Source: Cladocopium goreaui | Lineage: Eukaryota; Sar; Dinophyceae; Suessiales; Symbiodiniaceae | Assembly: GCA_947184155.2 (NCBI GenBank) | Contig: CAMXCT020003179.1 | Location: 320,001-384,000, forward strand | Length of the DNA stretch: 64,000 nucleotides | Reading direction: 5' to 3' | Part shown: piece after piece, positions 4,630 through 57,065 of the stretch | How positions within the stretch are numbered: position 1 is the stretch's first letter | How the letters are laid out: each line of letters opens with the position of its first letter | Program-made: the position numbers and the translations under genes | Notes under the pieces: generated by a model | What the model was told of the DNA's origin: nothing | The model's database searches: none | What the model saw: the letters and a program-made list of their open reading frames with translations, nothing else

Positions 4630-5430
4630 GTGCATACACATTTATACAATATATACAATATATACAATATATACAATATATACAATAGATACAATATATA
4701 CAATATATACAATATATACAATATAAACAGTATAAACAGTATATACAATATAAACAATATATACAATATATATATATACAATATACACAAAATATACAAA
4801 ATATACAATATATACAAAATATACAATATATACAAAATATACAATATATACAATATAAACAGTATAAACAGTATATACAATATAAACAATATATACAATA
4901 TATATATACAATATACACAAAATATACAAAATATACAATATATACAAAATATACAATATATACAAAATATACAATATATACAAAATATACAATAAATACA
5001 ATATATACAATATATACAATATATACAATATATACAATATATACAATATATAAAATATATATACAATATATACAATATATACAATATATACAATATATAC
5101 AATATATACAACAATATACAAAATATACAAAATATACAATATATACAAAATATACAATATATACAATATATACAATATATACAATATATACAATATATAC
5201 AATATATAAAATATATACAATATATACAATATATACAATATATACAATATATACAATATATACAATATATACAATATATACAATATATACAATATATACA
5301 ATATATACAATATATACAATATATACAATATATACAATATATACAATATATACATATATACATATATACATATATACATTTATGCATACATACATATACA
5401 TATATATATATATCCATGTATATATATATA
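4630..5430. repeat. ATATACAAT 9-mer satellite array
   Basis: About 800 bp of tandem ATATACAAT with variants (AAACAGTAT, AAAATATAC). Part of the left half is itself duplicated: a segment near 4728-4850 recurs near 4857-4980. Because the 9-mer has no stop codon in several frames, long Tyr/Ile/Val/Cys frames result on the minus strand. These are artefacts of the repeat, not genes. Confidence 0.95.
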
Positions 5431-5519
5431 GGAATTTCCCTAAATGTTGGTACCCCAAAATGGATCGTTTATGAAGGAAAATCCCATGAAAATTGATGAT
5501 TTGGAGGTACCCCTATTTC

Positions 5520-6500
5520 AGGAAACCAGCAAATTTATAGTATATATATTTTTATCTATTATATATAAAATATATACATAATAGGTACCATATATATAAT
5601 ATAAACAATATATAATATGTAAATATATGTATATATAATATATTTGAAAAATAGTATATAATATAAATATATATATATAATGTACATAATATTTACAATA
5701 TATATATATAAATGAAAAATATACTATATAATAATTATATATATGTATAGTATTATTTTGAGATTATATATAATATTATATATATTATAAATATAATGTC
5801 TTATACCGCATATATATTATACAATAGATGCAATATAAAATATGTTATATTATTATGTATATATATGTATAATAATCAAAATATAATATATAAAATATAA
5901 TATGTATTGTATATATGATGTTACTGTTCTATTTATATATATACAATATATTATATATATACATTATATATAATATATATATATAATATATATATAATAT
6001 ATATATAGTATATATATTATATATCTTATGAATATTATGTTTATTATATGTAAATAGTATTTATAGTACATATAAATTATAATATATATATATTATAATA
6101 TTGAAAAAATAGGTATATCTATATAGATATATATTATTTTAAAAAAAAGAAAAAAAAACGTATATAAATTATATATACTATAAAAAATATTGCCATATAA
6201 TGTACATAATATATGCACATCATATACATAATATACATAATATACATAATATACATAATATACATAATATACACAATATACATAATATACATAATATACA
6301 TAATATAAATTATACATAATTTACATAACATACGTAAGTAACATACATGATATACATAATATACATAATATTCAATATATAAAATATATATTATATACAA
6401 CATATAATATACACAATATAAATAATATATAAAATAATCTATATTTAATATTTAATATCATATATTTGTAATATATAAAATCATAAATATATATATATAA
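5520..6500. repeat. A+T-rich low-complexity block with ATATACATA array
   Basis: Almost pure A/T sequence. A tandem 9-mer ATATACATA occupies about 6195-6420. No coding, RNA or regulatory feature can be supported. Confidence 0.9.
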
Positions 6501-7250
6501 TGTATTTCAAATATGGAAAAAAAAGGTTCAACTTAGACAGGCGGCGCCTGCGTCCGATTTTTCCATAATTGGATTTTTCCCCATAAGGGTTCAAAATATC
6601 CCGGAAGTGATCCGAACCTTTTTTTTTCCATAATTCTTGGAGGTGGCCATTATTTCCATAATTGATTTTTCCTGTGAAATCAGGGGGCTCGGGCAAATTG
6701 ACCGGTTTTTCCATAATTACTTTTTTTCCATCATTAATGTTTGGGGCTCCACCTGTTGGACATGTCATGGATCCACAATTCAAACCCGTTTTTTTTGGGG
6801 GTTATGGAAATATGTATGCAAATGCAAGTATGTAGTATCAACCCAATTGGTGGCTTGGCAAAAGGAAACATCCCGCATATGTATATCAATGTCAGGCTGT
6901 AGGGGCATATACCAGATCTTTAAACACATATTTTCTATAATTCAATATTCCCCCTTAAAATGCATTCAAATTGCGAACATCACATGATATTATGTATATC
7001 AATGGAAGACTTTAGGGGCATATACCAGATCTTTAGACACATATTTTCTATAATTCAATATTCACCCTTAAAATGCATTCAAATTGCGAATCGATGGACA
7101 TACAGTCACCGACAGAATTATGGAAAAAAACAAATTATGGAAACAATAATTATGGAAAAAAAAGGGTTCGTAACTTTCCTATCATAGACAGGCGGCGCCT
7201 GTAAATTGAAACGTTTTTTTTTCCATAATTCTGTCGGTTCCTGTATATAC
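6500..7250. repeat. Island with CCATAATT motifs and paired GC-rich copies
   Basis: This non-satellite island sits inside the A+T block. The 16-mer AGACAGGCGGCGCCTG occurs at 6535-6550 and again at 7186-7201, each near runs of T or A and TTTTTCCATAATT or its complement. Between them lies a direct duplication of 97 bp (6881-6977 and 6994-7090). The left side mostly carries CCATAATT and the segment before the second GC motif carries AATTATGG, so the island is partly an inverted structure. Confidence 0.75.
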
Positions 7251-8680
7251 CATATAATATTTAATATTTATTGTATATTCGATATTATATATTATGAACT
7301 AGAATTTATATTTTATATATTATATATTAAATATTATTTTGTGAATATTAAATATTATATATTATATTATATATCATATGTTATATATTATAATTCAATA
7401 TTATATCTCATTTATTATATATTAGAACATATTTATTATATATTACATATTATATATTGTATATTACATATTATATATTATATATTATATATTGTATGTT
7501 GTATATAATATATTGTATATTGAAAAGTTGATATATTATATATTGAAATTTTGATATATTATATATTAGATACTATATATCATAAAGTATATATTTTATA
7601 TTATATTTTATATATTATATATCATATACTATATATTATATCAAATATTGTTTTTTATCTTTGGTATATTATACAATATTAAATAATATATTATATGATA
7701 TTACATTATATATCATAGTATATTATATTGTTTAAAATACTATATTTTATTATATTATATTATATTATGTATATATATACTATGGTATATATTATATTAT
7801 CTATTATATTTTAAATATTTTTTAAAATATGACATTTTTAATATTATATAATATATATATTATATTATATAATATTTTAATATTATATAATATATATTAT
7901 ATATTATATAATATATATTATAGATTATATTTTAAATATTATATATGTTATTTTATACATTATATATTATACGTTCTATATTCTATATTATTTATATATT
8001 ATTTATTATCTATTATATATTATCTATTATATATTATATATCATATATTCAATATTATATATCATATATGATATATTATATATTATATATATTAAATATT
8101 TTATATTATATATTATATATTAAATATTATATTGTGAATATTTTACATTATATATTATGATTATATTGTTTTCTTTAATATTATATATGTTATATTATAT
8201 ATTATATATTATATATTATATATTATATATTATATGTTATATATTATATATTATATATTATATATTATATATTCTATATTATATATTATATTATATATAT
8301 ATTATATTATATATATTATACTATTTTATATATATATATATTATACTACTATATATAATATATTAAATATTATAAATCATATATTATATATTTTTTATTA
8401 TATATTATATATTATATATTTGAAATTATATACTATATATTATATAGTATATTTCATATTATATATTATATGTTATCTATTATCTATTGAATATTCTCTA
8501 TTTTACATTATATATATAATATATGTTTTATTTCATACTATATATTTTCTATTATATTAGATATCTATATATACGATATTATATACTTATTTATATATAT
8601 ATATTTATTATTATTATTATTCTTATTATTATTATTTTTTTGTTATTATTATTATATATATATATGTATTTCATGTACTC
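7251..8680. repeat. A+T-rich satellite (TATATTATAT type)
   Basis: About 1.4 kb of degenerate TATATTATAT repeats, ending in TTATTATTATT and TATATG microsatellites. Open frames rich in Tyr, Ile and Leu run through it in several phases and are repeat artefacts. Confidence 0.9.
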
Positions 8681-23112: not shown

Positions 23113-24000
23113 TCAGTAAACACTTCTAAGATTTTCACCAGGCTCAGTATAGTGGTGGAAGAATCCAACATTTCTTCCGCGCCACTTCAAAGATATGCAA
23201 ACATCTTCATGGCATGCCAGGTATGATACAAGTGCTTCAAAACGACTAGGCTCTTTTGGGTCGGCTGTGCAGTGTAGGTTGCCAGGTGCCGCAATGTGTT
23301 GGCAATGAGGAAGATCTGAGGCCAAGTACAAAAGGATTCCAACGCAAGTTCGAAACTTCTTCGCAAGGGCGGGACTCAGTTCACCTGTGTTGTCCTGCAA
23401 ATCCATGTCAGAATGGCCAGGTGTCTTCTTCGATTGCAAACGCTTGTTCAAACCCAACAACGCACACATTTGTTGAACATGCTTGTAATAAGTCTGGATG
23501 CTGAGCCGGCCATTATGGTGAAGAACCCTTTTGCGTTTCAAAAACTGTATTTCATCACCAGGTGTCTCCATAGTCTGCACAGAAATTTCGTACTTCTCCT
23601 TGAGGCATTTCACAAGTCTGTTCATGACAAAATCACGTTTTCCAACAACCAACATGTCATCCACATGAATGAGGGCCTGTTGTTTCAGTGTCAAGAATGC
23701 ATCTTTCACATCAGTGCTAACCATGACACAATCTGCGTTCTCTTTCATCTCCAAAAACATGGTTGGCAGCAGTCGTGCCACAATTGCATTGCTCGCTGGT
23801 GAAAACAGAAAATCTCTTTCACTATCCATCCATGCAAACTCTCTTGTAACCAGCCTTGAGCTCAACGAAATTGGCTCTCCAGTATCACTCAACTTTTCCC
23901 GCCACGTACATACGAAGCGAGTTGACAGAACTTTGTGATCTGCAGGCATCTCTGATGTGTCTGTGAACACTGCATACTTCAGTCTTTTCACTTCTATCAT
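23113..24000 (-). pseudogene. Copia reverse transcriptase segment
   Basis: 295 codons open on the minus strand. The N-terminal part has LSTRFVCTWREK, the conserved start of copia RT. Then TDVKDAFLTL supplies the first catalytic Asp and IHVDDMLVVG the DD pair. The usual region between these (the ALYGLKQAP block) is missing: DAFLTLKQQA runs straight into LIHVDD. This indicates an internal deletion of the palm. The tail (SDMDLQDNTGELSPALAKKFRTCVGILLYLASD) is the normal connection to RNase H. The frame is part of the remnant at 21890-24700. Confidence 0.8.
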
Positions 24001-24599
24001 TCTGCAATTGCATCCAAACGTTGCAACTCCTCTGGGGAAAGATTGGGCTCTTCTTTGCTGAAAGGAAACATGACCCGCTTGGTTAGTTCATCGTTGCTAA
24101 GCTCCTGACTTTCGTAGAGCTCGTCATTGGGTTCAGCTCATATTCTTCCAACTCACCAAGTTCGTCATTGTTGAATGCAAACCTCACACCATCCTCATGC
24201 TCATAAAGTGACAGATCTATACGGGTGACTGATTCAGCATTTTCTTCTGTACATCATCATCCAACTTTTGGCGTCTTGGGGGAGCTCTCACCAATTGCAG
24301 TTTCGTCCAAAAGAAAGGTACGCTCTACAGATGAAAACGCTGCATCTGCAAATTTGACACGCTTCTGCGTCTCATCCTGCTCTACCTCATCTGGTCGTTT
24401 TTGTCCATGCGCAGCTGGCTGATCACTGCTGAAAAGAAGCTTGGCAACTCTGCAGACTCAAGAGGTTCAGGCAAGGGTTTCATGATCTACCCCCGTCTCA
24501 GCTGATGCTTCAACATCTTCGTTAGGATATTCTCTGGCATAGTTTTGGACATGCACAGCAAGGTCCAATTGTAGGGGTAATGAGGGCTCCAATGCCGTG

Positions 24600-25120: not shown

Positions 25121-25127
25121 ACCTTGG

Positions 25128-25470
25128 TACTAGTATAGTACCACTAGTATACCCTCCCTAAACCCTCCCAGTGATACGTGGAATATAACGAGTATATTTC
25201 CGATATCAAAAAGAGGTAACGCAATCTACGCGGTATATATTTTCGAACATAAAAACATCAACAAACAAAAACATCTCAAAAACAAACAGGCATCTCTGAA
25301 ACTTCCCACGTCGTTCCATGCAACAAACAAAATACATCATGATGAATTTCAGAGCAGCTCCATCTTTTTCCTTTCGCTATTTCATTGGGTACGGATTGGA
25401 AATCCAGCCCCTTTTGCAACATCCGTCAGTTGACCATTTGCGAATGGTACCCGAGCTGAAAGTTGCATCC
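25128..25470 (-). repeat. Split direct repeat B2
   Basis: 343 bp, near-identical to 25935-26277. In element orientation it forms the 3-prime end, finishing GGTACTATACTAGTA. The plus strand carries two ACTAGT palindromes near the outer end, possible recombination-core sequence. Confidence 0.9.
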
Positions 25471-25486
25471 GGGACTGGGTGGGTGG

Positions 25487-25935
25487 GACCTTTTAGTCTC
25501 CAACCCTTTTGATCCACTAAATTTTGTGACATAAAAGAAATATATGAAACCAGTAATGACGGAATTCAAGTTGAAATGAATTCAGGTTTCAGATTTGTTT
25601 GTTTGTCCAAATAAAAACCGAGGAAAACAAATCAAAAATATGAAGATGAGAAAACCTTTCAGATTCTTTCTGAAAAATTTATTCACGAGAATTCAGATGA
25701 CGGAATTCCAAATAGAAAACGTGTCAAGCATGACACTGAAGTTCCCTTATCGGAACCCATGAGTAGAATGTTCAGAACCATTCAAAGAACCTTCCCGGGA
25801 ACCGCGCGAGAAAGGAAAGTATAAATAAGGAGCGAGGAACGCAAGGGAGCACGGCGTAGACGCGCAGGGAGAGACGGCGCTCAATACGGGCGCAGGTACT
25901 AACTAATACACTATCGCAACGAGTCGCGAGTGCGT
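25487..25935 (-). repeat. Split direct repeat A2
   Basis: 449 bp, near-identical to 33240-33688. It joins B1 with a shared single base. The B1-A2 junction has the sequence expected if B2 were joined to A1 in a circular intermediate. It also contains heat-shock-like elements and a TATAAATA, described separately. Confidence 0.9.
25765..25827 (+). promoter_or_regulatory. Heat-shock-element-like motifs and TATA-like box
   Basis: AGAATGTTCA (25765-25774) and AGAACCTTCC (25786-25795) each match nGAAnnTTCn, the core pair of a heat-shock element, with CATTCAAAG between them. TATAAATA follows at 25820-25827. The same set is present in repeat A1 (TATAAATA at 33573-33580). The HSE-then-TATA order points along the plus strand, opposite to the element's genes. 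HSEs work in either direction, and dinoflagellates seldom use canonical TATA boxes, so transcription direction is uncertain. Confidence 0.4.
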
Positions 25936-26277
25936 ACTAGTATAGTACCACTAGTATACCCTCCCTAAACCCTCCCAGTGATACGTGGAATATAACGAGT
26001 ATATTTCCGATATCAAAAAGAGGTAACGCAATCTACGCGGTATATATTTTCAAACATAAAAACATCAACAAACAAAAACATCTCAAAAACAAACAGGCAT
26101 CTCTGAAACTTCCCACATCGTTCCATGCAACAAACAAAATACATCATGATGAATTTCAGAGCAGCTCCATCTTTTTCCTTTCGCTATTTCATTGGGTACG
26201 GATTGGAAATCCAGCCCCTTTTGCAACATCCGTCAGTTGACCATTTGCGAATGGTACCCGAGCTGAAAGTTGCATCC
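25935..26277 (-). repeat. Split direct repeat B1
   Basis: 343 bp, near-identical to 25128-25470. It lies directly downstream of the RT/RNase H gene in element orientation. Confidence 0.9.
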
Positions 26278-26410
26278 CTTTAGGATAACGAGGGCACCAA
26301 TCACCAATGGTCTAGTTTCTTCTTTTGTTTTGGAGAAGCTCTTTTCCTCTTGTCTTTGTTTTCAAGCTTGGCTTTCTGAAGTTCGGTGAAGAATTCCTTT
26401 GCTTTGTCCA

Positions 26411-26893
26411 TTAGCCCGTCAAGCACGTCCATTTGGTGTTTCCTCCGACCCATTGAACTCTCCGCTCTCCAGGGAACTTGCTAAAATCCTCATTGGTGAG
26501 GTCGTCTGCTAGTTGGTTGTGTTCACGCGGTATCCATTCCAAGCCCAACTCGCAATTCCTGAGCCTCAAGGTTTCTGAGAGCTCCAACACCAATAGGGTC
26601 AGTGGAAATTTGGTGCTCATGAGCTTATTGACAGCGTATGTGTTCCCTTGATTGTCGGTACCTGCACGAATCCAGCAAGTGCCAGTGCTAGCGACTCCTA
26701 GATCCTTTGTCCAGAGTCGTAGCATCGCAGGCAGCTTCAGAGTACCTCTCTTGTTTCTTATCGCAGCTGTCCAAGAAAACGTAGCATCGCAGGCAGCTTC
26801 AGAGTACCTCTCTTGTTTCTTATCGCAGCTGTCCAAGAAAACAATGGTCCCAAGAAAGGACGCTCCCACAAGAGAGCGTTTGCAGCGAAACAC
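26411..26893 (-). pseudogene. RNase H part of the YR-element polymerase, out of frame
   Basis: This frame carries the RNase H region of the element. It includes TDNQGNTYAVNKLMS and the exit motif EWIPREHNQLADDLTN, typical of DIRS-class RNase H. It is out of frame with the upstream RT because of a 62-bp tandem duplication (26719-26780 and 26781-26842). A second frame change near 26425-26445 separates it from the likely true C-terminus, which reads MDKAKEFFTELQKAKLENK and ends LDHW before a TGA at about 26299. RNase H would remove the RNA strand during cDNA synthesis; this copy cannot make one fused enzyme. Confidence 0.8.
26719..26842. repeat. 62-bp perfect tandem duplication inside RT/RNase H
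   Basis: Positions 26719-26780 are repeated exactly at 26781-26842. Sixty-two is not a multiple of three, so the duplication shifts the frame between RT and RNase H. The identity of the two copies indicates a recent event. Confidence 0.95.
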
Positions 26894-28374
26894 AAACGTC
26901 CAAGACCCTGCTCCATCTCCTTCGCAGTTGCATTTCCTGAGTCAGCAAGACCTTTGGTCCATTTTGCAACCCAAGTTGCCCTTGAGGGCGAAAGACCAAG
27001 TTTCATGCTGGTGTAATCAGCAAAAAGTCCTATCCACTCCACTTTCAAGCCACCTCTCTGCTTTGCCCATTTAAATGGGAAACCAAGAACTGCTAAGTAG
27101 AGAAACGCCAGCACCACACCCCTTCTCCCTTGCCTGTCTGGTCCAAGCGCCTCCAGGTCATCTGCAAATATCAACATCTCTACCGGCATCTCCGGACCTA
27201 TCAACTCATGGACCAGCCTCAGGCCTGATCCCCAATATGATGCGGAAGCCACTCCAAACGTTCCCACATTGTTGATGTACACATGGTCATCTGTGGAAAG
27301 GACTCGGCATGCCAGAAGGCCCCTTTCGCTGGGGTGATGCAGGAAACGTCGGTGAGCCTTGCTAATGTCACCCACAAGGCTGAAGATCACATTGCCCTTG
27401 TCTTTGTAATAGGCTAGCAAGTACATTTTCTCCCGTGCCCCCGGGCTCCTTTGTTTGTCCCGGCACTTGATTCTGTTGTTGATCTTCGTCCCATGAGTTG
27501 CATCGTGTATTATACGCCGCTTGTTACCATGAGCTTCTTCCACCAGAACTGATAGGGATGAGATTGCAATCTTATCCCCAAAACGCCTCCTGGCCTCTTC
27601 AAGCGACATCTTTTCCATGAGCCCTTCTTCGCATTCAGCTTTGAAGTGTTCTCGCACGAACTCCTCATGGTCCTGGACTGACTCATAGTTATCTCGCCAG
27701 ATTTCTTCACGCATATATGGATCCTCTTCCAACTTCCAAGCCGTCTGCTCCTCATACATATGAGGAGTCCTAGGCAGCTGGTGCAGGACCCCCACTGGAA
27801 AACCTTCTTGACCTTGCAAAAGAAAACGGTGGTCTGGGCCTCCTGCCCGTTCTGACAACGCTTGCATAAGCTTCAGCCTGAAAGGCTGTCCATCTGCAAT
27901 CTCACCAAGACCTTCAGTTTCATATCCCTCTTCTCTCAAAAGTGTGATCCACAGATCCACCAGTTTTGACTGTAACGCCTGATCTCGAACCAGGTTGCAG
28001 CCCTGTTCACCCTTGGCCGCCATTTGAAAACACTCCAAGTCAAACTTTTGCCAACCACCGCAGCTCTCCAAAACCAAACGCAAGGATCCTTCCCTGAGTT
28101 TCTTCCAAAAACCATCTGTGTTCCATGTCCTACGTTCCAGGTCCCAACGCCCTGGTGAAGCCAAACCTGCACCATCATGGAATTCTCTGGTCTTACCTGG
28201 GGATCTGCAGATCCTTGGTTCATCGCTTCCACCACGTATCTTCCAGCCTTCTGGTTCTGTGGTTGTAAACTTTTCCGAGGTTGTTGTGGTATTTTGTTGA
28301 ACCCCTCCGGAGGCCAAAACGACTGAGGTATGAAATTTCTCTAAAATTTGCAACGCTATCCAACGACAGCTCAC
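26758..28374 (-). CDS. Reverse transcriptase of the YR retrotransposon
   Basis: 538 codons. An N-terminal domain of about 300 residues precedes the RT core. Catalytic motifs: VGDISKAHRRF (about 334-344, first Asp), GTFGVASASYWG (371-382, the F/YG-AS-W block of DIRS-class RTs) and IFADDLEALG (402-411, FADD replacing YxDD). Later FKWAK and EWIGL belong to the thumb and connection. The frame ends early because of the 62-bp duplication; RNase H continues in another frame. Its start overlaps the methyltransferase frame by 155 nt in the +1 phase, so it may be made by frameshifting or internal initiation. It would synthesise cDNA from the element's RNA. Confidence 0.85.
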   Translation of the reverse strand: MSCRWIALQILEKFHTSVVLASGGVQQNTTTTSEKFTTTEPEGWKIRGGSDEPRICRSPGKTREFHDGAGLASPGRWDLERRTWNTDGFWKKLREGSLRLVLESCGGWQKFDLECFQMAAKGEQGCNLVRDQALQSKLVDLWITLLREEGYETEGLGEIADGQPFRLKLMQALSERAGGPDHRFLLQGQEGFPVGVLHQLPRTPHMYEEQTAWKLEEDPYMREEIWRDNYESVQDHEEFVREHFKAECEEGLMEKMSLEEARRRFGDKIAISSLSVLVEEAHGNKRRIIHDATHGTKINNRIKCRDKQRSPGAREKMYLLAYYKDKGNVIFSLVGDISKAHRRFLHHPSERGLLACRVLSTDDHVYINNVGTFGVASASYWGSGLRLVHELIGPEMPVEMLIFADDLEALGPDRQGRRGVVLAFLYLAVLGFPFKWAKQRGGLKVEWIGLFADYTSMKLGLSPSRATWVAKWTKGLADSGNATAKEMEQGLGRLCFAANALLWERPFLGPLFSWTAAIRNKRGTLKLPAMLRFLGQLR

Positions 28375-29188
28375 TAGGCCACTGCTCGGTCCCCTTTGTC
28401 ACAAAACTGTTGCCTGCATGGCCAATCAACTGTTTGACGGCCTCTCTCTTCGTCAGAGGACCCTCGTAGAATCCTTGTTCATCAAAACTGGGCCTACCTT
28501 GCACAAAAGCTGTCTGTTGTTGAGTTTGAAAATCTTTGAGCAGTAAACGCGTGGGTTTCAAATATTCCGTGCCAAAATCAGCCTGGTAAAACGCAACTGT
28601 TTCCCAACCCTGTCTTTCCAACAACTCAAAAAAGGTTGGCCATTGCCACATGCTGGCTGGACGTTGGCCATAAAGATTTCCCTGTTGTACTGCTCCAAGA
28701 TCTTCAGGGTTTTCAAACAGCAACATTGTGTCGGTCGTTGAAACTTCTACACAAACTTCAAAGGAAAAATCTGTGAGCTCATTTCCCCATTTTGCCTTCT
28801 GCCGCTCCGACCATGTCAATCGCTGTAGCCCTCTTGGCTGCACATAAGACCGGACCGGTCTTGGTCCTTTTTGGTTCGCCCATGTCGCCCTTGTAAAAGT
28901 GCTGCAAGGCGGTGAAATCAAAACTGCAAAGTAACGCCCGCTACGTATTTTGTTTAACAAAACTTGTCTGCTCTTTGACTTGGTCAAGTCCCAGTTCGGA
29001 CGCACTTTGATGTCAATCATTTCGACTTGAACTGTGATACCCATGCGTGAGCCCAGCTTTTTGGCCCATGCAGAAACAGATCCTTTGCGGCTGCTCCCTG
29101 AAAAAATGTATAGAATACGGCACACTCTGCTACCAGTTTCTGCGCCATTCAAATTCTGTGAAACTGTTTCACCTCCACCATCCTGCAT
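28220..29188 (-). CDS. DNA-methyltransferase-like protein of the YR element
   Basis: 322 codons. The fold-defining motifs of a Rossmann-type, SAM-dependent DNA methyltransferase are visible: YIFSGSSRKGS (about 27-37, SAM-binding motif I), MIDIKV (57-62, acidic end of strand 2), ISPPCSTFTRA (91-101, PPC motif IV with the cysteine used by C5 methyltransferases) and LFENPEDLG (157-165, ENP in place of the ENV of motif VI). This points to a cytosine-C5 type rather than the adenine (DAM-like) type I associate with DIRS elements. It follows gag in the same frame after one stop and one codon. It may methylate element DNA or host targets; the activity is inferred only. Confidence 0.7.
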   Translation of the reverse strand: MQDGGGETVSQNLNGAETGSRVCRILYIFSGSSRKGSVSAWAKKLGSRMGITVQVEMIDIKVRPNWDLTKSKSRQVLLNKIRSGRYFAVLISPPCSTFTRATWANQKGPRPVRSYVQPRGLQRLTWSERQKAKWGNELTDFSFEVCVEVSTTDTMLLFENPEDLGAVQQGNLYGQRPASMWQWPTFFELLERQGWETVAFYQADFGTEYLKPTRLLLKDFQTQQQTAFVQGRPSFDEQGFYEGPLTKREAVKQLIGHAGNSFVTKGTEQWPSELSLDSVANFREISYLSRFGLRRGSTKYHNNLGKVYNHRTRRLEDTWWKR

Positions 29189-29191
29189 TTG

Positions 29192-30415
29192 TCAGTTGGT
29201 GCCCGTAGTATCCGGGCTGCTCTCCTTGCAGTTCAAAGCATTGTGACCCTTCTTGAAGCATTTGCTGCAAATATGCGCGAACTTGCAACCCTTGTGCTTG
29301 CACATGCCCTTGTTGAACCGATAGCAGTACTTTTCTCCTGCTGGACCTTGTCCTTTCCCTTTGGAGGATCCCTTTGGGGATTTTGACTTGCCTTTGCCCT
29401 TTGCATTCCAAAGCCCTGGCGAAGGTGCCGACGAGGAAGAAGCTCCATAAGAACGCTTTGAGTATAGCGCCAATGGCGTTATGAAGTGTCTCTCTTTCAC
29501 TGTCGGACACTTCCAAGCTTGCTCCAGGGCTGCACCAAGTTGTAGCCTCTCTTTGATCATGATCACATAGGCTCTCTTTCTAATAGCCTGCTCATAGGAC
29601 AAGACCAAGCTCCAAGGTGGCGTCTGAATTTGTTGCCCTTGAAGGTCTGTTGAGCTAAGACCCCAAACGTAATCTCCCAGCAAGTAGTCCTTGTATCTAT
29701 CAAAGACATCTTTGTCCACGTCTTGAATCTCCTCTCTATTGACATGTTTCAAAGCCAGCATCATGATGCAGTTTTGCATGACGCTCAACCGCCTCCTCAG
29801 TTGCTCGGGCCCCGTGGGTAAAGCTACTGTGGAAGAACCTTTCTTCACACTGAGAGATCCTTTGGCATCAAAGATCGGCACCAAAACGTCTGGGTCTACT
29901 TCGTCCTTGCTCACTACTTCTGACAAGGTCTCTGCTCTGAACTCTCCATTTTCCAGCTCCTGTAGTTTCTTCTCCAGATACTCCTTTGCAGGCGTAACTT
30001 TGTCCTCCAAATGCCCCATCGCCTGTTGATAGGCATTGCGGAGCTGTACATAGTCTCCTGTAGGAATAGGTTTGGTCCATTCCCTTGTATTCATTTCTGC
30101 TTCAACTTCTGCCTGTCTCTTTGCCTTTGTACTGACTTCTTTCCAAGAGCAAATCACTGCTGCAACTTTTGCACGATCGCCCAAGGAAGCCGCAGCATCA
30201 ACATGGAAATCATCTCTGAGCACTTGTACCAAGTCCGCCTCATCTCTAAAGAAGGCAGAGAATTTGTTGACGTTTGTGACCCCATGTGTAAAAAACTGAG
30301 CTTGCACCTCCTCTGGCACCTCGTTCCGCTCAAACGTGAAACGCAAATCTGAGTTGCCCAGTTTCAAAGTCTCTTCCAGTGTCTGCGGCCACAATCCAGG
30401 TCCCAGAAAAGCCAT
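29192..30415 (-). CDS. Gag-like protein of the YR element
   Basis: 407 codons. Most of it is a helical domain without clear homology. The C-terminus has a Lys/Ser/Gly-rich linker, then CYRFNKGMCKHKGCKFAH, a CCCH-type zinc finger (CX7CX4CX3H), then CSKCFKKGHNALNC, a CX2CX4HX4C retroviral zinc knuckle. This pair indicates RNA binding and packaging of the element transcript. It ends with TGA at 29192-29194. The next in-frame sense codon is CAA and the next is the ATG of the methyltransferase-like frame, so stop-codon readthrough or re-initiation could link the two. Confidence 0.85.
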   Translation of the reverse strand: MAFLGPGLWPQTLEETLKLGNSDLRFTFERNEVPEEVQAQFFTHGVTNVNKFSAFFRDEADLVQVLRDDFHVDAAASLGDRAKVAAVICSWKEVSTKAKRQAEVEAEMNTREWTKPIPTGDYVQLRNAYQQAMGHLEDKVTPAKEYLEKKLQELENGEFRAETLSEVVSKDEVDPDVLVPIFDAKGSLSVKKGSSTVALPTGPEQLRRRLSVMQNCIMMLALKHVNREEIQDVDKDVFDRYKDYLLGDYVWGLSSTDLQGQQIQTPPWSLVLSYEQAIRKRAYVIMIKERLQLGAALEQAWKCPTVKERHFITPLALYSKRSYGASSSSAPSPGLWNAKGKGKSKSPKGSSKGKGQGPAGEKYCYRFNKGMCKHKGCKFAHICSKCFKKGHNALNCKESSPDTTGTN

Positions 30416-31196
30416 GCCCTAACGCTCACAGCCCTCTAAAGAGGAAGTGTAACAGTGCAGAAAAAGTTTTGCATCATCTCGTAATTGACATGCACTATCC
30501 AGCGATATGCAGAGAAAAACCCAACAGCTGTCAACGTCAAACTCAATGAAAACTTTTCAGCACTGCAAGAGTGAGCTTTCTACTTATGTCAAATTTGTGC
30601 ACTCAGTTTGTCTGAAGAAATATGTTTGTCTTTGCAACATTTGTATGTCTCATGACGCATCACGGTGACCTTCGTCACTGCGCTTGAACCGAGGACCCCC
30701 GAGTGCAATTCCGGCACATCAGTCCCTTGATTTCTATGTCAGCACAGGTGTTTTCCGGGATCCTTCGATCCAAATTGATTTGAAAGACCTTTACATGTAC
30801 CTGACGCCTGTGCACAGTCCAATTTCCCCTCACCATGTTTTTGACATGACAAACTGCTCAAAAAACTCTGAGTTGAAAACCGGAACATCTCCCGCCAGAA
30901 CTGGGCAGCAGTCTAGCATATTTTGCTTCTGTATGCCCTCCGGTTCTGGTTATGTTCTGAGCCGCTTTCGGCCCTTTCAATGCACGACCCTTCAAGTGTC
31001 ATCGACACCATGGAAACTAAATGCCGCTCTGGGGTTTGCATTGTTTGACAACTCCACTGAAATGATCCTAACTGAAAATGAAATGAAGTGGCAACGTTTC
31101 AATGTTTCAACTGTCTCTCAAAAAAAACATACACTGCATCAGAAGAAACAAGTGCAATCACATCCAACCGTCCTGAACCCCAAAATGACAAGACCC
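30416..31196. other. Spacer between recombinase and gag genes
   Basis: 780 bp without a sense-strand gene. A 180-codon frame runs antisense (30684-31226, plus strand) and overlaps the recombinase 3-prime end by 30 bp. It has no recognisable domain. The spacer may hold the gag promoter or a trans-splicing acceptor, but no motif can be pinned down. Confidence 0.5.
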
Positions 31197-33197
31197 TCAA
31201 CTACTGTTGCTACCAGCTTTCTCTGATTCCTCAGAGCTAGACGAGCTGGTGCTCGATGAGGTATCCTCTGTGCTGTCGTCCTCCCCTTTTGAGGCTGGCC
31301 AACAAACGCGACAGACATGTGTGAAACTAGTGTCTGGTGGCTTCTCCATGTACTCTTCTGACGTCTTAAACGTTTTTTCTCTTGCCATCCAACAACCTCC
31401 TTTGGTCTTGTGCAAACGTTTGCAACGATTGTTGACATGCACCACTACGTATTCAGCATCCCTCTGAATCTTCTGTTCCTGAGTGTCCGACTGTCCTCGA
31501 ATCTCTTTCAGGTCCAAGGTTTCAAATTCAACGGGAACAGTCTCAAAAGGTTCAGGATCTAAACTCGCATCAAAGTAATATGTCATCGATGTTTCAAGTG
31601 AAAACAAAATGAAATCACACTCAGCCTTTGCAATATCCGTCCTGCGCGACCTCAGCCACGCCCCTGCAGACTCCAGGATGTCTACCTCATCCAGGATTTT
31701 CATGCGGTCCGGTTTCCTCAAAGCTTTGGCAAACTTCAACTGCAAGTTGGCAACCAAACCATTGTATGATCTGATATAAGTGTCACTGGCCTCTGGTTTC
31801 CACCTGCCAATCAGGTTCCTGTCAGTGGTCTGTACTCCTAACATTGCAATACCTGTTGGGAAAGTTGCACGTTCAGAGTGTTCTGTCCAGAAAGTCGCAA
31901 GATCCTCCGGGATCAACATTTCCCAGTCACTGGACCTTATCAAGGTCTTGCGCAAGTAAGTTGAATATGCCGTCATGTCTGCATAAGTGGCATACTTCTT
32001 CCTGAACCCTTTCCAGTCCTCTGCAAACCTGGGTATCAGGTAATCCCTGTCAAAGTCAGTGTTCTTTTTGAGTAAATCAAATCCAGTTGGAATCCATTTC
32101 GCACTCCAAACGAACGCCAATTCAGAAACACATACTGGCAGTTCCTGCAGTCTCTTCCCCGGCCCTGAAGTCTTTGTCACCCTGAGAAGAGTGGTCAACC
32201 TTCCATTTGTCAAATGAAGTTCACCAGGTTTTCTCTTCTGTAAATCGTCATAGCGTAATCCTCCCCAGATTTTGAGAAGCTTGCACCAAGCTAAAACTCT
32301 GAGGCAAAGCAACATTGCAGAATCCAAAACCATGCACTCCAAGGCTTCGATCACCACTGCAGGATATCTTGGCGCCCGACGAGGTGGTGGACTATCCCTT
32401 GACAGCTGTTCAGTGATATAATCCCTGATCTGTATAACGGCACGACTGGAAGTGACTATGGAAGACTCATCTAAACCTGCCACCTTCTCAAACCAGTTGA
32501 TTGCTTTGCAAATAAACCCAGGAATCGAAGGACCACAAGGCTCATCCATCCTTGAAAAAAGGTACTCACAAAACATCCCAGGATGCACAAATGATTCTTC
32601 ACCCCAAGCTGACTTCTTCCAAAGCTGACAGGCCTTCCAAGCCTTGACATATCGTTTCAACGTTGATCCCCTTGTTTTCCCAGCCAAGGCCAAATGAATA
32701 CGCTCCGAACCGACACAGAAGTCCATGCCCTGTAAGATTGGAGCATTGATTGCAGCTAGCTGTATATACAACTCCCTTGACCACTTCTCTTTTAGGTCTG
32801 TCTCCCATTTTCTCTTTGCATCAACTTGTTCATCTTGTGCACGGTGTTTGACCCTTAAAGGTTTCCAAACATCAGTAGAAGACCCTGCAACCGAAGAAAC
32901 GTGGACATGAGCAGCTGTACTGGGTTTGACTTTGAAACGGTCATCCAATGTTGCATGCAAAGATTCAGGCATGTGGTCACTCCGTAGCCGCTTCTGAAAA
33001 GGCTCATCTGTGTTTACTCTGCACAACCAAGACCTGACTATCTCAACATGTGTGCCATCACAGATCCAACCTAGTTCATGACAAACTTGCTCTGCAATGT
33101 CGTGTGCATCATCCGGTTTGTAAACTGCAAGTTTCTTACTATCCAGACCGAAACGTTGGAGAATCGTCCACATCGCCTCCTCAACATCCACATCCAT
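31197..33197 (-). CDS. Tyrosine recombinase (integrase) of the YR element
   Basis: 666 codons, the first gene of the element. Catalytic set: Arg315 in GGLRYDDLQ, then HxxR as His440-Ser-Glu-Arg443 (TEHSERATFPTGIAMLG), then GRWKPEASDTYIRSY with Trp466 in the H/W position and Tyr474 as the likely nucleophile. The GRW-PE-SDTYxR signature is typical of DIRS/Ngaro-class recombinases. After residue 540 there is a Cys-containing tail (CKRLHKTKGGCW and CRVCWP), a possible zinc ribbon, and a Ser/Glu-rich C-terminus. It would join circular cDNA to genomic DNA without a target duplication. All catalytic residues are present, so this gene may still be active. Confidence 0.9.
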   Translation of the reverse strand: MDVDVEEAMWTILQRFGLDSKKLAVYKPDDAHDIAEQVCHELGWICDGTHVEIVRSWLCRVNTDEPFQKRLRSDHMPESLHATLDDRFKVKPSTAAHVHVSSVAGSSTDVWKPLRVKHRAQDEQVDAKRKWETDLKEKWSRELYIQLAAINAPILQGMDFCVGSERIHLALAGKTRGSTLKRYVKAWKACQLWKKSAWGEESFVHPGMFCEYLFSRMDEPCGPSIPGFICKAINWFEKVAGLDESSIVTSSRAVIQIRDYITEQLSRDSPPPRRAPRYPAVVIEALECMVLDSAMLLCLRVLAWCKLLKIWGGLRYDDLQKRKPGELHLTNGRLTTLLRVTKTSGPGKRLQELPVCVSELAFVWSAKWIPTGFDLLKKNTDFDRDYLIPRFAEDWKGFRKKYATYADMTAYSTYLRKTLIRSSDWEMLIPEDLATFWTEHSERATFPTGIAMLGVQTTDRNLIGRWKPEASDTYIRSYNGLVANLQLKFAKALRKPDRMKILDEVDILESAGAWLRSRRTDIAKAECDFILFSLETSMTYYFDASLDPEPFETVPVEFETLDLKEIRGQSDTQEQKIQRDAEYVVVHVNNRCKRLHKTKGGCWMAREKTFKTSEEYMEKPPDTSFTHVCRVCWPASKGEDDSTEDTSSSTSSSSSEESEKAGSNSS

Positions 33198-33239
33198 CTA
33201 CGGGAGTGTGAGCGCTCCGGGGCAAAGCCGTCCATTAAC

Positions 33240-33688
33240 GACCTTTTAGTCTCCAACCCTTTTGATCCACTAAATTTTGTGACATAAAAGAAATATATGA
33301 AACCAGTAATGACGGAATTCAAGTTGAAATGAATTCAGGTTTCAGATTTGTTTGTTTGTCCAAATAAAAACCGAGGAAAACAAATCAAAAATATGAAGAT
33401 GAGAAAACCTTTCAGATTCTTTCTGAAAAATTTATTCACGAGAATTCAGATGACGGAATTCCAAATAGAAAACGTGTCAAGCATGACACTGAAGTTCCCT
33501 TATCGGAACCCATGAGTAGAATGTTCAGAACCATTCAAAGAACCTTCCCGGGAACCGCGGGAGAAAGGAAAGTATAAATAAGGAGCGAGGAACGCAAGGG
33601 AGCACGACGTAGACGCGCAGGGAGAGACGGCGCTCAATACGGGCGCAGGTACTAACTAATACACTATCGCAACGAGTCGCGAGTGCGT
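33240..33688 (-). repeat. Split direct repeat A1 (5-prime end of the YR element)
   Basis: 449 bp, near-identical to 25487-25935 (one visible change, GCGCGAG versus GCGGGAG). In element orientation it starts ACGCACTCGCGAC. The start codon of the recombinase lies about 40 nt downstream of its inner end. It contains the same HSE-like and TATAAATA motifs as A2. Confidence 0.9.
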
Positions 33689-33879: not shown

Positions 33880-34140
33880 TCAGATTCCTCTGATGTGCAT
33901 TGCAGGGCCGAAGCTGGACACTTGTTTTGTGGATGCTCAGGGACTCCATTGAACGTGCAAACAACAAGGTTCGCAATTTTTTTTCCTCAGGTATGGCCGA
34001 TGTCGCTTTAAGGCTCGGTCCTGAAATTGGTATAAACAGGTCAAACGAATTAAAAAACTCAGCATGAAACGCAGTGGTTCCATCCATAGCAAACAACAAG
34101 GTTGGCAAAGATCCTCATTTCAGACGTGACATGTTTCACT
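33880..34140 (+). pseudogene. Copia protease-region fragment, second copy
   Basis: The plus strand reads GPKLDTCFVDAQG, and after a one-base shift TPLNVQTTRFA, the sequence expected just after the protease site in copia elements. The following stretch (GGCTCGGTCCTGA..., about 34013-34070) matches 25068-25120 closely. It is thus a direct duplicate of the fragment left of the YR element, now degenerate. Confidence 0.6.
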
Positions 34141-40164: not shown

Positions 40165-40860
40165 AATATTTTTTTTACGATTTTAATATGGTTTTGGATA
40201 CGATTTGACGATATGAATTTGATATGCTTTGAATTTGGGGTTATGATTTCGATATGATTTTGATATGGTTTTGATACGATTTTGATACGATTTTGATACG
40301 GTTTTGATATGATTTTGATACGGTTTTGATATGGTTCCAGCGAGTTGGCTTCAAAAAAAGAAACAGAAACAGCGCAGGGATAGGTTTTTGGTCGATGTTT
40401 CGAGGATTTTTATGGTTTTGGTATGATTTTGATATGGTTTTGATGCGATTTTGATACGATTTTGATACGCTTTTGATACGATTTTGATACGGTTTTGGTA
40501 TGATTTTGATCCGGTTTTTACATGGTTCCAGTGAGTTGGCTTCAAAAAAAGAAACAGAAACAGCCCAGGGACATGTTTTTGGTCGAATTTTCAATGGTTT
40601 TTAGGGTTTTGGTATGATTTTGATATGGTTTTGATACGATTTTGATACGATTTTGATACGATTTTGATATGATTTTGATATGGTTCCAGTGAGTTGGCTT
40701 CAAAAAAAGAAACAGAAACAGCCCAGGGACAGGTTTTTGGTCAATTTGTCGAAGGTTTTTGTGGTTTCGATATGATTTTGATACGATTTTGATACGCTTT
40801 TGATACGATTTTGATACGGTTTTGATACGATTTTGATATGGTTTTGATACGATTTTGCAA
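40165..40860. repeat. GATTTTGATACG minisatellite with a higher-order unit
   Basis: Tandem 12-mers GATTTTGATACG/GGTTTTGATATG are interrupted three times, at about 40335, 40525 and 40682, by the same 60-bp block starting GGTTCCAG(C/T)GAGTTGGC and containing AAAGAAACAGAAACAGC. The array therefore has a higher-order period of about 160-190 bp. It begins right after the helicase donor site and so may lie in an intron. Confidence 0.85.
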
Positions 40861-41082
40861 TATTTTGGATATTGTTCCGATGGGTTCTTGGAGGTGCGGC
40901 CCTGCTTATAACTAGTTGTTATACTTGTCATGGTTATCGTTCCAGTTACTGTATCACTTATAGTTGGACTTACTAAGTCAGTCATGCTAGACTTATGGTT
41001 TGACTTAGGTAAGTGCGACAACCTAGTTGTCGTCTACTTGTAAGTATTTACGGTTGGACTTGTGCTACTTATTAAGTCAGAC

Positions 41083-55819: not shown

Positions 55820-57065
55820 CCCAGCAAACACCATGGAACTACTTCTCAAAGATCTCTCGAGGAATTAGTCATAGTCATCTTTAACAGCACTACTTCTCAA
55901 AGATCTCTCGAGGAATTACTCACCTCTAACAACACTACTTCTCAAAGATCTCTCGAGGAATCACTCATCTCTAACAACACTACTTCTCAAAGATCTCTCG
56001 AGGAATTACTCATCTCTAACAAAACAACTACTTCTCAAAGAACTCTCGAGGAATTACTCATCTCTAATAAAACAACTACTTCTCAAAGATCTCTCGAGGA
56101 ATTACTCATCTCTATAACTACTTCTCAAAGATCTCTCGAGGACTTACTCGTCTCTATAACAACACTACTTCTCAAAGATCTCTCGAGGAATTACGCATCT
56201 CTAACAACACTCTACTTCTCAAAGATCTCTCGAGGAATTACGCGTCTCTAACAACACTACTTCTCAAAGATGTCTCGAGGAATTACGCGTCTCTATATAA
56301 CAACACTACTTCTCAAAGATGTCTCGAGGAATTACTCATCTCTATAGCAACACTATACTTCTCAAAGATCTCGAGGAATTACTCATCTCTAACAACACTA
56401 CTTCTCAAAGATCTCTCAACGAATTACTTGTCTCCAAAAACACTACTTCTCAAAGATCTCTCTCGAGGAATTACTCATCTCTATAACAACACTACTTCTC
56501 AAAGATCTCCCGAGGAATTACTCATTTCTAACTGCACTATAGTTCTCAAAGATCTCTCGAGGAATTAGTTATCTTGAACAACAGGACTTCTCAAAGATCT
56601 TTCTCGAGGATGACTCATCTCTAACAACACTACTTCTCAAAGATTTCTCGAGGAATTACTCAACTCTATAGCAACACTACTTCTCAAAGACTTCTCGAGG
56701 AATTTTCTCATCTTTAACAACACTACTTCTCAAAGATCTCTCGAGGAATTACTCGTCTCTCTCAACACTACTTCTCAAAGATCTCTCGAGGAATTACTCG
56801 TCTCTCTCAACAGTTCTTCTCAAAGATCTCACGAGGAATTACTCATCTCGAACAACACTACTTCTCAAAGATCTCTCTCGAGGAATTGCTTGTCTCCAAC
56901 AACACTACTTCTCAAAGATCTCCCTCGAGGAATTACTCATCTCTAACAAAACAGTACTTCTCAAAGATTTCTCGAGGAATTATACTCATCTCCAACAAAA
57001 CAACTACTTCTCAAAAATGTCGCGAGGAATTACTCAGTTACTCATCTCTAACAGCACTAGTAATG
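55820..57065. repeat. Tandem array of about 45-bp units (CTTCTCAAAGATCTCTCGAG)
   Basis: Around 27 units of 42-48 bp each carry ACTACTTCTCAAAGATCTCT followed by CGAGGAATTACTC. In the first 450 bp many units are 45 bp and stay open on the plus strand, giving a repeated TSQRSLEELLISNN peptide (55805-56251). Later units vary by one or two bases and break every frame. Each unit contains AGATCT and CTCGAG palindromes close together. Confidence 0.9.

Follow-up and report, generated by a model that had tools for sequence, protein, structure and literature searches.

The window analysed here is a 64,000-nucleotide stretch of the genome of the dinoflagellate Cladocopium goreaui (GenBank assembly GCA_947184155.2, contig CAMXCT020003179.1, positions 320,001 to 384,000), in which positions 25127-33686 are occupied by an 8560-bp retrotransposon whose ends were placed by comparison across copies (20 elements). 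Every gene of the element lies on the minus strand, along which it reads: direct repeat A1, tyrosine recombinase (YR), gag, a methyltransferase-like (MT) region, reverse transcriptase (RT), ribonuclease H (RNase H), direct repeats B1 and A2, a 16-bp spacer, and direct repeat B2 (Table 1). The initial annotation had described a YR retrotransposon with split direct repeats, arranged as A1-genes-B1-A2-B2, and with the unusual gene order recombinase, gag, methyltransferase, RT, RNase H; sister copies bear out this description. The repeats are identical at 447 of 449 positions in the A pair and at 341 of 343 positions in the B pair (B1 25935-26277, B2 25128-25470), which BLAST lengthens by one base to the 344 bases given in the table. 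We read the last two bases of A1, beyond 33686, as target-derived. No second copy of the element's proteins was found within the 64-kb window. The element belongs to the DIRS order of retrotransposons, carries split direct repeats and varies a layout already in print; the copy in the window is a recent, defective member of a multicopy dinoflagellate retrotransposon family.

Table 1. Features of the retrotransposon and its target site (window coordinates).
Feature	Position	Strand	Evidence or remark
A1, 5' direct repeat	33240-33688	-	447/449 identical to A2; outer element edge 33686
Tyrosine recombinase (YR) ORF, 666 aa	31200-33197	-	
gag-like ORF, 408 aa stop to stop, with C-terminal CCCH finger and CCHC knuckle	29195-30418	-	
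Possible RNA hairpin just 5' of the TGA	29201-29217	-	folds, synonymous-codon control, pair counts on relatives
Lone in-frame TGA at the gag/pol boundary	29192-29194	-	
C5-methyltransferase-like (MT) N-terminal domain of Pol	28367-29188	-	structure model, Foldseek, VIA-align
RT part of Pol, motif FADD	26761-28398	-	RVT_1 matches in relatives
RNase H part of Pol, disrupted	26301-26941	-	ORF 26414-26941; RVT_3 E 0.018, under its cut-off
B1, internal direct repeat	25934-26277	-	repeat alignment, BLAST
A2, internal direct repeat, abutting B1	25487-25935	-	repeat alignment
C-rich spacer between A2 and B2	25471-25486	-	conserved in other copies
B2, 3' direct repeat	25127-25470	-	repeat alignment, BLAST, end comparison
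Likely paralogous empty target site adjoining the element	33977-34083	+	joined flanks align over the junction; 7 bases on one side

In the 1.17-Gb genome, the RT search yielded 79 scored places among 1162 candidates, and the 20 best-scoring places after the window were taken as long stretches (the sisters). All 20 sisters keep the order gag-MT-RT-RNase H (L034 retains only the end of gag), and YR lies upstream in 19 of them, the stretch examined around L034 having none. The A pair was seen in 19 of the 20 sisters and the B pair in all 20 (in two pieces in L035), and the arrangement A1-coding-B1-A2-B2 is shared by the window copy and 19 sisters. Where BLAST pairs them, A1 and A2 of the sisters are 99.3-100% identical, which suggests recent movement. 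Across the 79 RT places, YR was found upstream on the same strand in 59, downstream in 0 and on the opposite strand in 0, with no scored YR in the remaining 20; the YR list comprised 70 matches, and only 67 of 818 YR candidates were scored. Linkage of RT and RNase H to a tyrosine recombinase instead of an integrase, the mark of the DIRS order, is seen in 59 of the 79 RT places. In other assemblies, gene models or ORFs join YR with gag (3), gag with MT (2), and gag with MT, RT and RNase H (1), always in the same order; the named relatives are from Symbiodinium natans, Polarella glacialis, Durusdinium trenchii, Effrenium voratum and Cladocopium goreaui. Certain gene models (P0303, P0315, P0323 and P0329), also fused, pass directly from gag to RT with the MT part missing, and for these false splicing and a true lack of the domain are indistinguishable. 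Scans of viral and prokaryotic contigs confirmed no relatives. The same genome also holds more distant Pol cousins, with open frames mostly of ~1030-1180 codons, and one Pol relative in the aligned set, P0338, matches DUF4326 (PF14216; E = 1.3 × 10−17), possibly a further accessory domain.

In the relatives, the MT-like domain, RT and RNase H form a single ORF, with frames of up to ~1040 codons in this genome, and MT and RT share one open frame in 19 of 21 elements (the window copy and its 20 sisters), the exceptions being the window copy and L024. The methyltransferase that had been annotated as a gene between gag and RT is present at that place, not as a separate gene but as an N-terminal domain of Pol, which in the window copy is cut off from the RT part by a frameshift. 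Its structure model (pLDDT 82) has the fold of a C5 methyltransferase according to Foldseek and VIA-align. The motifs are of the C5 type as well, with the cysteine in 61 of 62 rows and the glutamate in 60 of 62. Motif IV reads PPC-S-T-F, from which motif IV of Dnmt3 differs. The Pfam scan gave no match for the MT domain of the window copy, and PF00145 matched neither this copy nor the relative P0001 at E-values up to 1; it matched 14 of 50 relatives (best E = 0.0066), and some relatives show weak PF00145 and PHROG matches for the domain. The dN/dS ratio of the domain is 0.02-0.15 (with dS >1.3 or undefined between groups), which points to purifying selection, and because of this the domain is probably used by the element. 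None of the 131 PF00145 matches in the genome (123 of 2685 candidates scored) has any of the 79 RT or 70 YR matches at a distance of 10 kb or less, and there is no overlap between the 117 contigs with PF00145 matches and the 48 that carry the distant Pol cousins. One 524-aa PF00145 ORF (L041, G000:C3021:71000-77000) was considered as a candidate DNMT-bearing DIRS element and rejected, as the next ORF is by eye transposase-like, not RT.

For the RT part of Pol, RVT_1 matched 5 of 39 relatives (best E = 3.1 × 10−6) and not the window copy. Compared with the relatives, the RT of the window copy has a small in-frame loss, and its RNase H region has an exact 62-bp tandem duplication (26718-26841) together with a loss and frame changes.

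To examine insertion, the joined flanks of 20 copies were compared with ~300 kb of sequence, in which a spanning paralog was found for 3 of the 20 and none for the other 17. Two of the three empty sites are solid, and both align ungapped at the junction: that of L022 over 30 bases on one side and 132 on the other, and that of L023 over 199 and 55 bases, with a single gap four bases away from the joint. The empty site of the window copy is weak, with only 7 bases on one side. At all three joints (two solid, one weak) nothing is duplicated or lost, and these sites show no target-site duplication. C directly precedes the element in 14 of 20 copies, and the position before that is A in 12 of 20, compared with 25% in the flanks. 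The B1/A2 joint reads TAC followed by GCACTCG[C/T]GACT in all 21 elements, the T variant being confined to L025. The AC before the element would fit a recombinase that crosses over at short AC-like homology with the element's GTAC end. The stretch that adjoins the element at 23113-24087 (minus strand) is by eye a Copia-like RT fragment, and the target site of L022 is a paralog of part of it.

The spacer between A2 and B2 is 16 bp long in the window copy and 16-25 bases across elements, with 97 in L038. At the 3' edge of A2, CCACCCACCCA followed by two bases and CCC occurs exactly once per element in 21 of 21 elements, and this motif is present at neither of the other repeat edges in the 19 elements compared. 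Together with the base next to it, the complement of the spacer contains four runs of G in most elements. As a guess, a strand might start or stop here during cDNA synthesis.

Several known groups of retrotransposons share parts of this organization. The Dam-like methyltransferase of the DIRS class is placed after RT, the internal repeats of Ngaro lie downstream of YR, next to it, and VIPER-like elements have gag first and, like the present element, YR before RT. In the element described here, YR is upstream of gag, the methyltransferase-like domain precedes RT, and the internal repeats come after Pol. The initial annotation regarded the element as the window's best candidate for an undescribed system, which is not supported: de Mendoza et al. 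2018 (PMC5890265) describe Symbiodinium DIRS elements (SymbioDIRS-Dnmt3) whose repeats are arranged A-coding-B-A-B, whose Pol includes a cytosine methyltransferase, and whose YR/Pol order is shuffled between two forms. The dinoflagellate host, the repeats, the MT in one Pol with RT (here in the 19 elements with both in one open frame) and the separate YR ORF are the same. The DNMTs in that article were found by PF00145, group with Dnmt3, and were graded for conservation by hmmsearch E-value, whereas PF00145 barely or never matches here. The word gag has 0 occurrences in the text of that article, and the passages on these elements mention neither a gag-pol UGA nor an A2/B2 spacer. PAT-like elements (Szitenberg et al. 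2014, PMC4157794), as described in passages of that article, share the A1-B1-A2-B2 repeats, RT/RNase H, YR, a methyltransferase domain, and, in Pat1, a zinc finger in Gag; however, the methyltransferase of the DIRS class is a Dam-like adenine type according to a passage in PMC5890265, whereas fold and motifs are C5 here. Ngaro has split direct repeats, YR and RT/RNase H in common with the present element but is without a methyltransferase (same passages of PMC4157794), and VIPER-like elements, according to part of PMC6681497, share the split direct repeats A1...B1-A2-B2 and, in some Gags, a CCHC box, but also have no methyltransferase (PMC4157794, in part); the MT-like domain in Pol, and for VIPER also the leading YR, keep the element out of both groups. 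Full-text term searches of the literature yielded no report of this cryptic MT lineage, of the UGA junction with its partly conserved hairpin, or of the C-rich A2/B2 spacer (split direct repeats and dinoflagellates were not searched jointly), and none of gag-pol UGA readthrough in DIRS or tyrosine-recombinase retrotransposons.

The C-terminus of Gag contains a CCCH finger and a CCHC finger, the latter with a weak Pfam zinc-knuckle match in the window copy (E = 0.024, under its cut-off). The CCCH finger beside the zinc knuckle had been noted as an oddity; it is present, but recurs by eye in relatives and is no peculiarity of this copy. A full-text search that joined CCCH and DIRS with four further terms found nothing. 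In 20 of the 21 long elements, the window copy included, gag ends in TGA with pol in the same frame, and in the remaining one, L034, the junction frame is shifted yet the TGA is still there. The same arrangement is found in 18 of the 20 short stretches, which include elements with an RT identity of 45-48%; the exceptions, L046 and L056, are copies whose open frames are shorter (859 and 884). The base after the gag TGA is C in 39 of 41 elements, vs. 3 of 19 after YR stops and 9 of 18 after pol stops. We compared the folding energy of the 36 bases before the TGA with that of 300 synonymous variants for 24 distinct junctions (41 elements). Of these, 16 rank within the lowest 7% of their variants and two at 13% and 21%, whereas the six of the LDTTG type show nothing; the hairpin is hence not universal to the family, with no such signal in the LDTTG clade. 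The pair-count control was small: among its five distinct rows, two pairs show changes on both sides, a value that 75 of 500 shuffles also attain. Percentage paired, cells with both-side changes and covariation score were each reached by 11 of 500 shuffles, and the number of further pair types was reached by 327. When the window's group is added, with its stem offset by one base, 90% of cells pair. Downstream of the UGA, where only single folds were made, there was no consistent structure.

Because gag and pol share one frame with a single UGA between them and mostly no start codon of Pol, readthrough of the UGA is the likeliest route to Gag-Pol, as far as sequence comparison goes. Conservation of the TGA cannot serve as proof of recoding, since TGA also ends 18 of 19 YR and 18 of 18 pol ORFs recognised, which makes the stop type uninformative. 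This weighs against readthrough, as does an ATG two codons past the UGA in the window copy and L021-L024, from which Pol could be re-initiated. Dinoflagellates trans-splice a leader, and Pol could also be translated from a separate, trans-spliced mRNA. Both routes appear unlikely to us: in 15 of the 18 pol frames measured there is no Met before MT motif I, the first Met being at codon 44-50, and in the far copies L060 and L061 motif I lies within ~ten codons of the UGA, with no Met. That UGA is a standard sense codon of the host would agree with the relative P0067, which is open through the site with Trp there, but is very improbable given that the YR, gag and pol frames of these elements close at standard stops, all 18 recognised pol ORFs with TGA.

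As to the identity of the element, near-identical repeats in one contig might have come from assembly duplication, and the recombinase and gag-RT genes from two merged elements, either of which would have undone the initial annotation. The sister copies rule out both, leaving them a practically negligible probability: the sisters' repeats differ from those of the window in sequence and length but have the same layout in 19 of 20 places, and the protein distances of YR, gag, MT and RT are congruent over 16-21 elements (matrix correlation r 0.97-0.99). An assignment to SymbioDIRS-Dnmt3 itself, with a DNMT that has drifted beyond Pfam, is a real possibility, albeit one that we consider doubtful. 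The host group, the A-coding-B-A-B repeats, the MT and RT in Pol, the separate YR and the shuffled forms described in passages of PMC5890265 speak for it, and the grading of DNMTs by E-value described there means that weak members may be included. Against it stand the missing PF00145 match in the window copy and the weak or missing ones in the relatives, the lack of any scored genomic PF00145 match near the RT and YR places, and a motif IV unlike that of Dnmt3. With the published PF00145 approach, the MT domain would probably be counted as absent, or else it is a far member of the published DNMTs. We propose only tentatively that these elements form a lineage distinct from SymbioDIRS-Dnmt3. 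The lineage would have gained the C5-methyltransferase of its Pol N-terminus independently and would use programmed UGA readthrough, in most clades with the aid of the pre-stop hairpin; the spacer would show where, at the A2/B2 joint, a cDNA strand ends or begins.

The gene order YR-gag-Pol, the near-identical repeats and, at the sites that could be compared, insertion free of target-site duplication are seen directly in the sequences. We consider the whole reading probable, with an inferred life cycle of readthrough and circle replication. The RNA would be read from A1 towards B2, and Gag would be translated from it, with some ribosomes passing the UGA to yield Gag-Pol. RT would copy the RNA, with the B1-A2 junction, equal in sequence to the B2-A1 junction of a circle, serving as the template for the ends and closing the circle, which a Cre-like recombinase would insert at short sites similar to its own AC end; the MT-like domain probably methylates the new cDNA. 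A retroelement survey that relies on PF00145 would score these abundant elements as methyltransferase-free, and YR retrotransposons may therefore have captured C5 methyltransferases earlier and more often than has been reported. With many young copies, open frames and clear ends, the family makes the replication of split-direct-repeat elements, which has received little study, testable, in particular Gag-Pol production and the rebuilding of ends.

Elsewhere in the window, large imperfect repeat arrays are located at 4634-6527, 7243-8677, 40241-40878 and 55837-57059.

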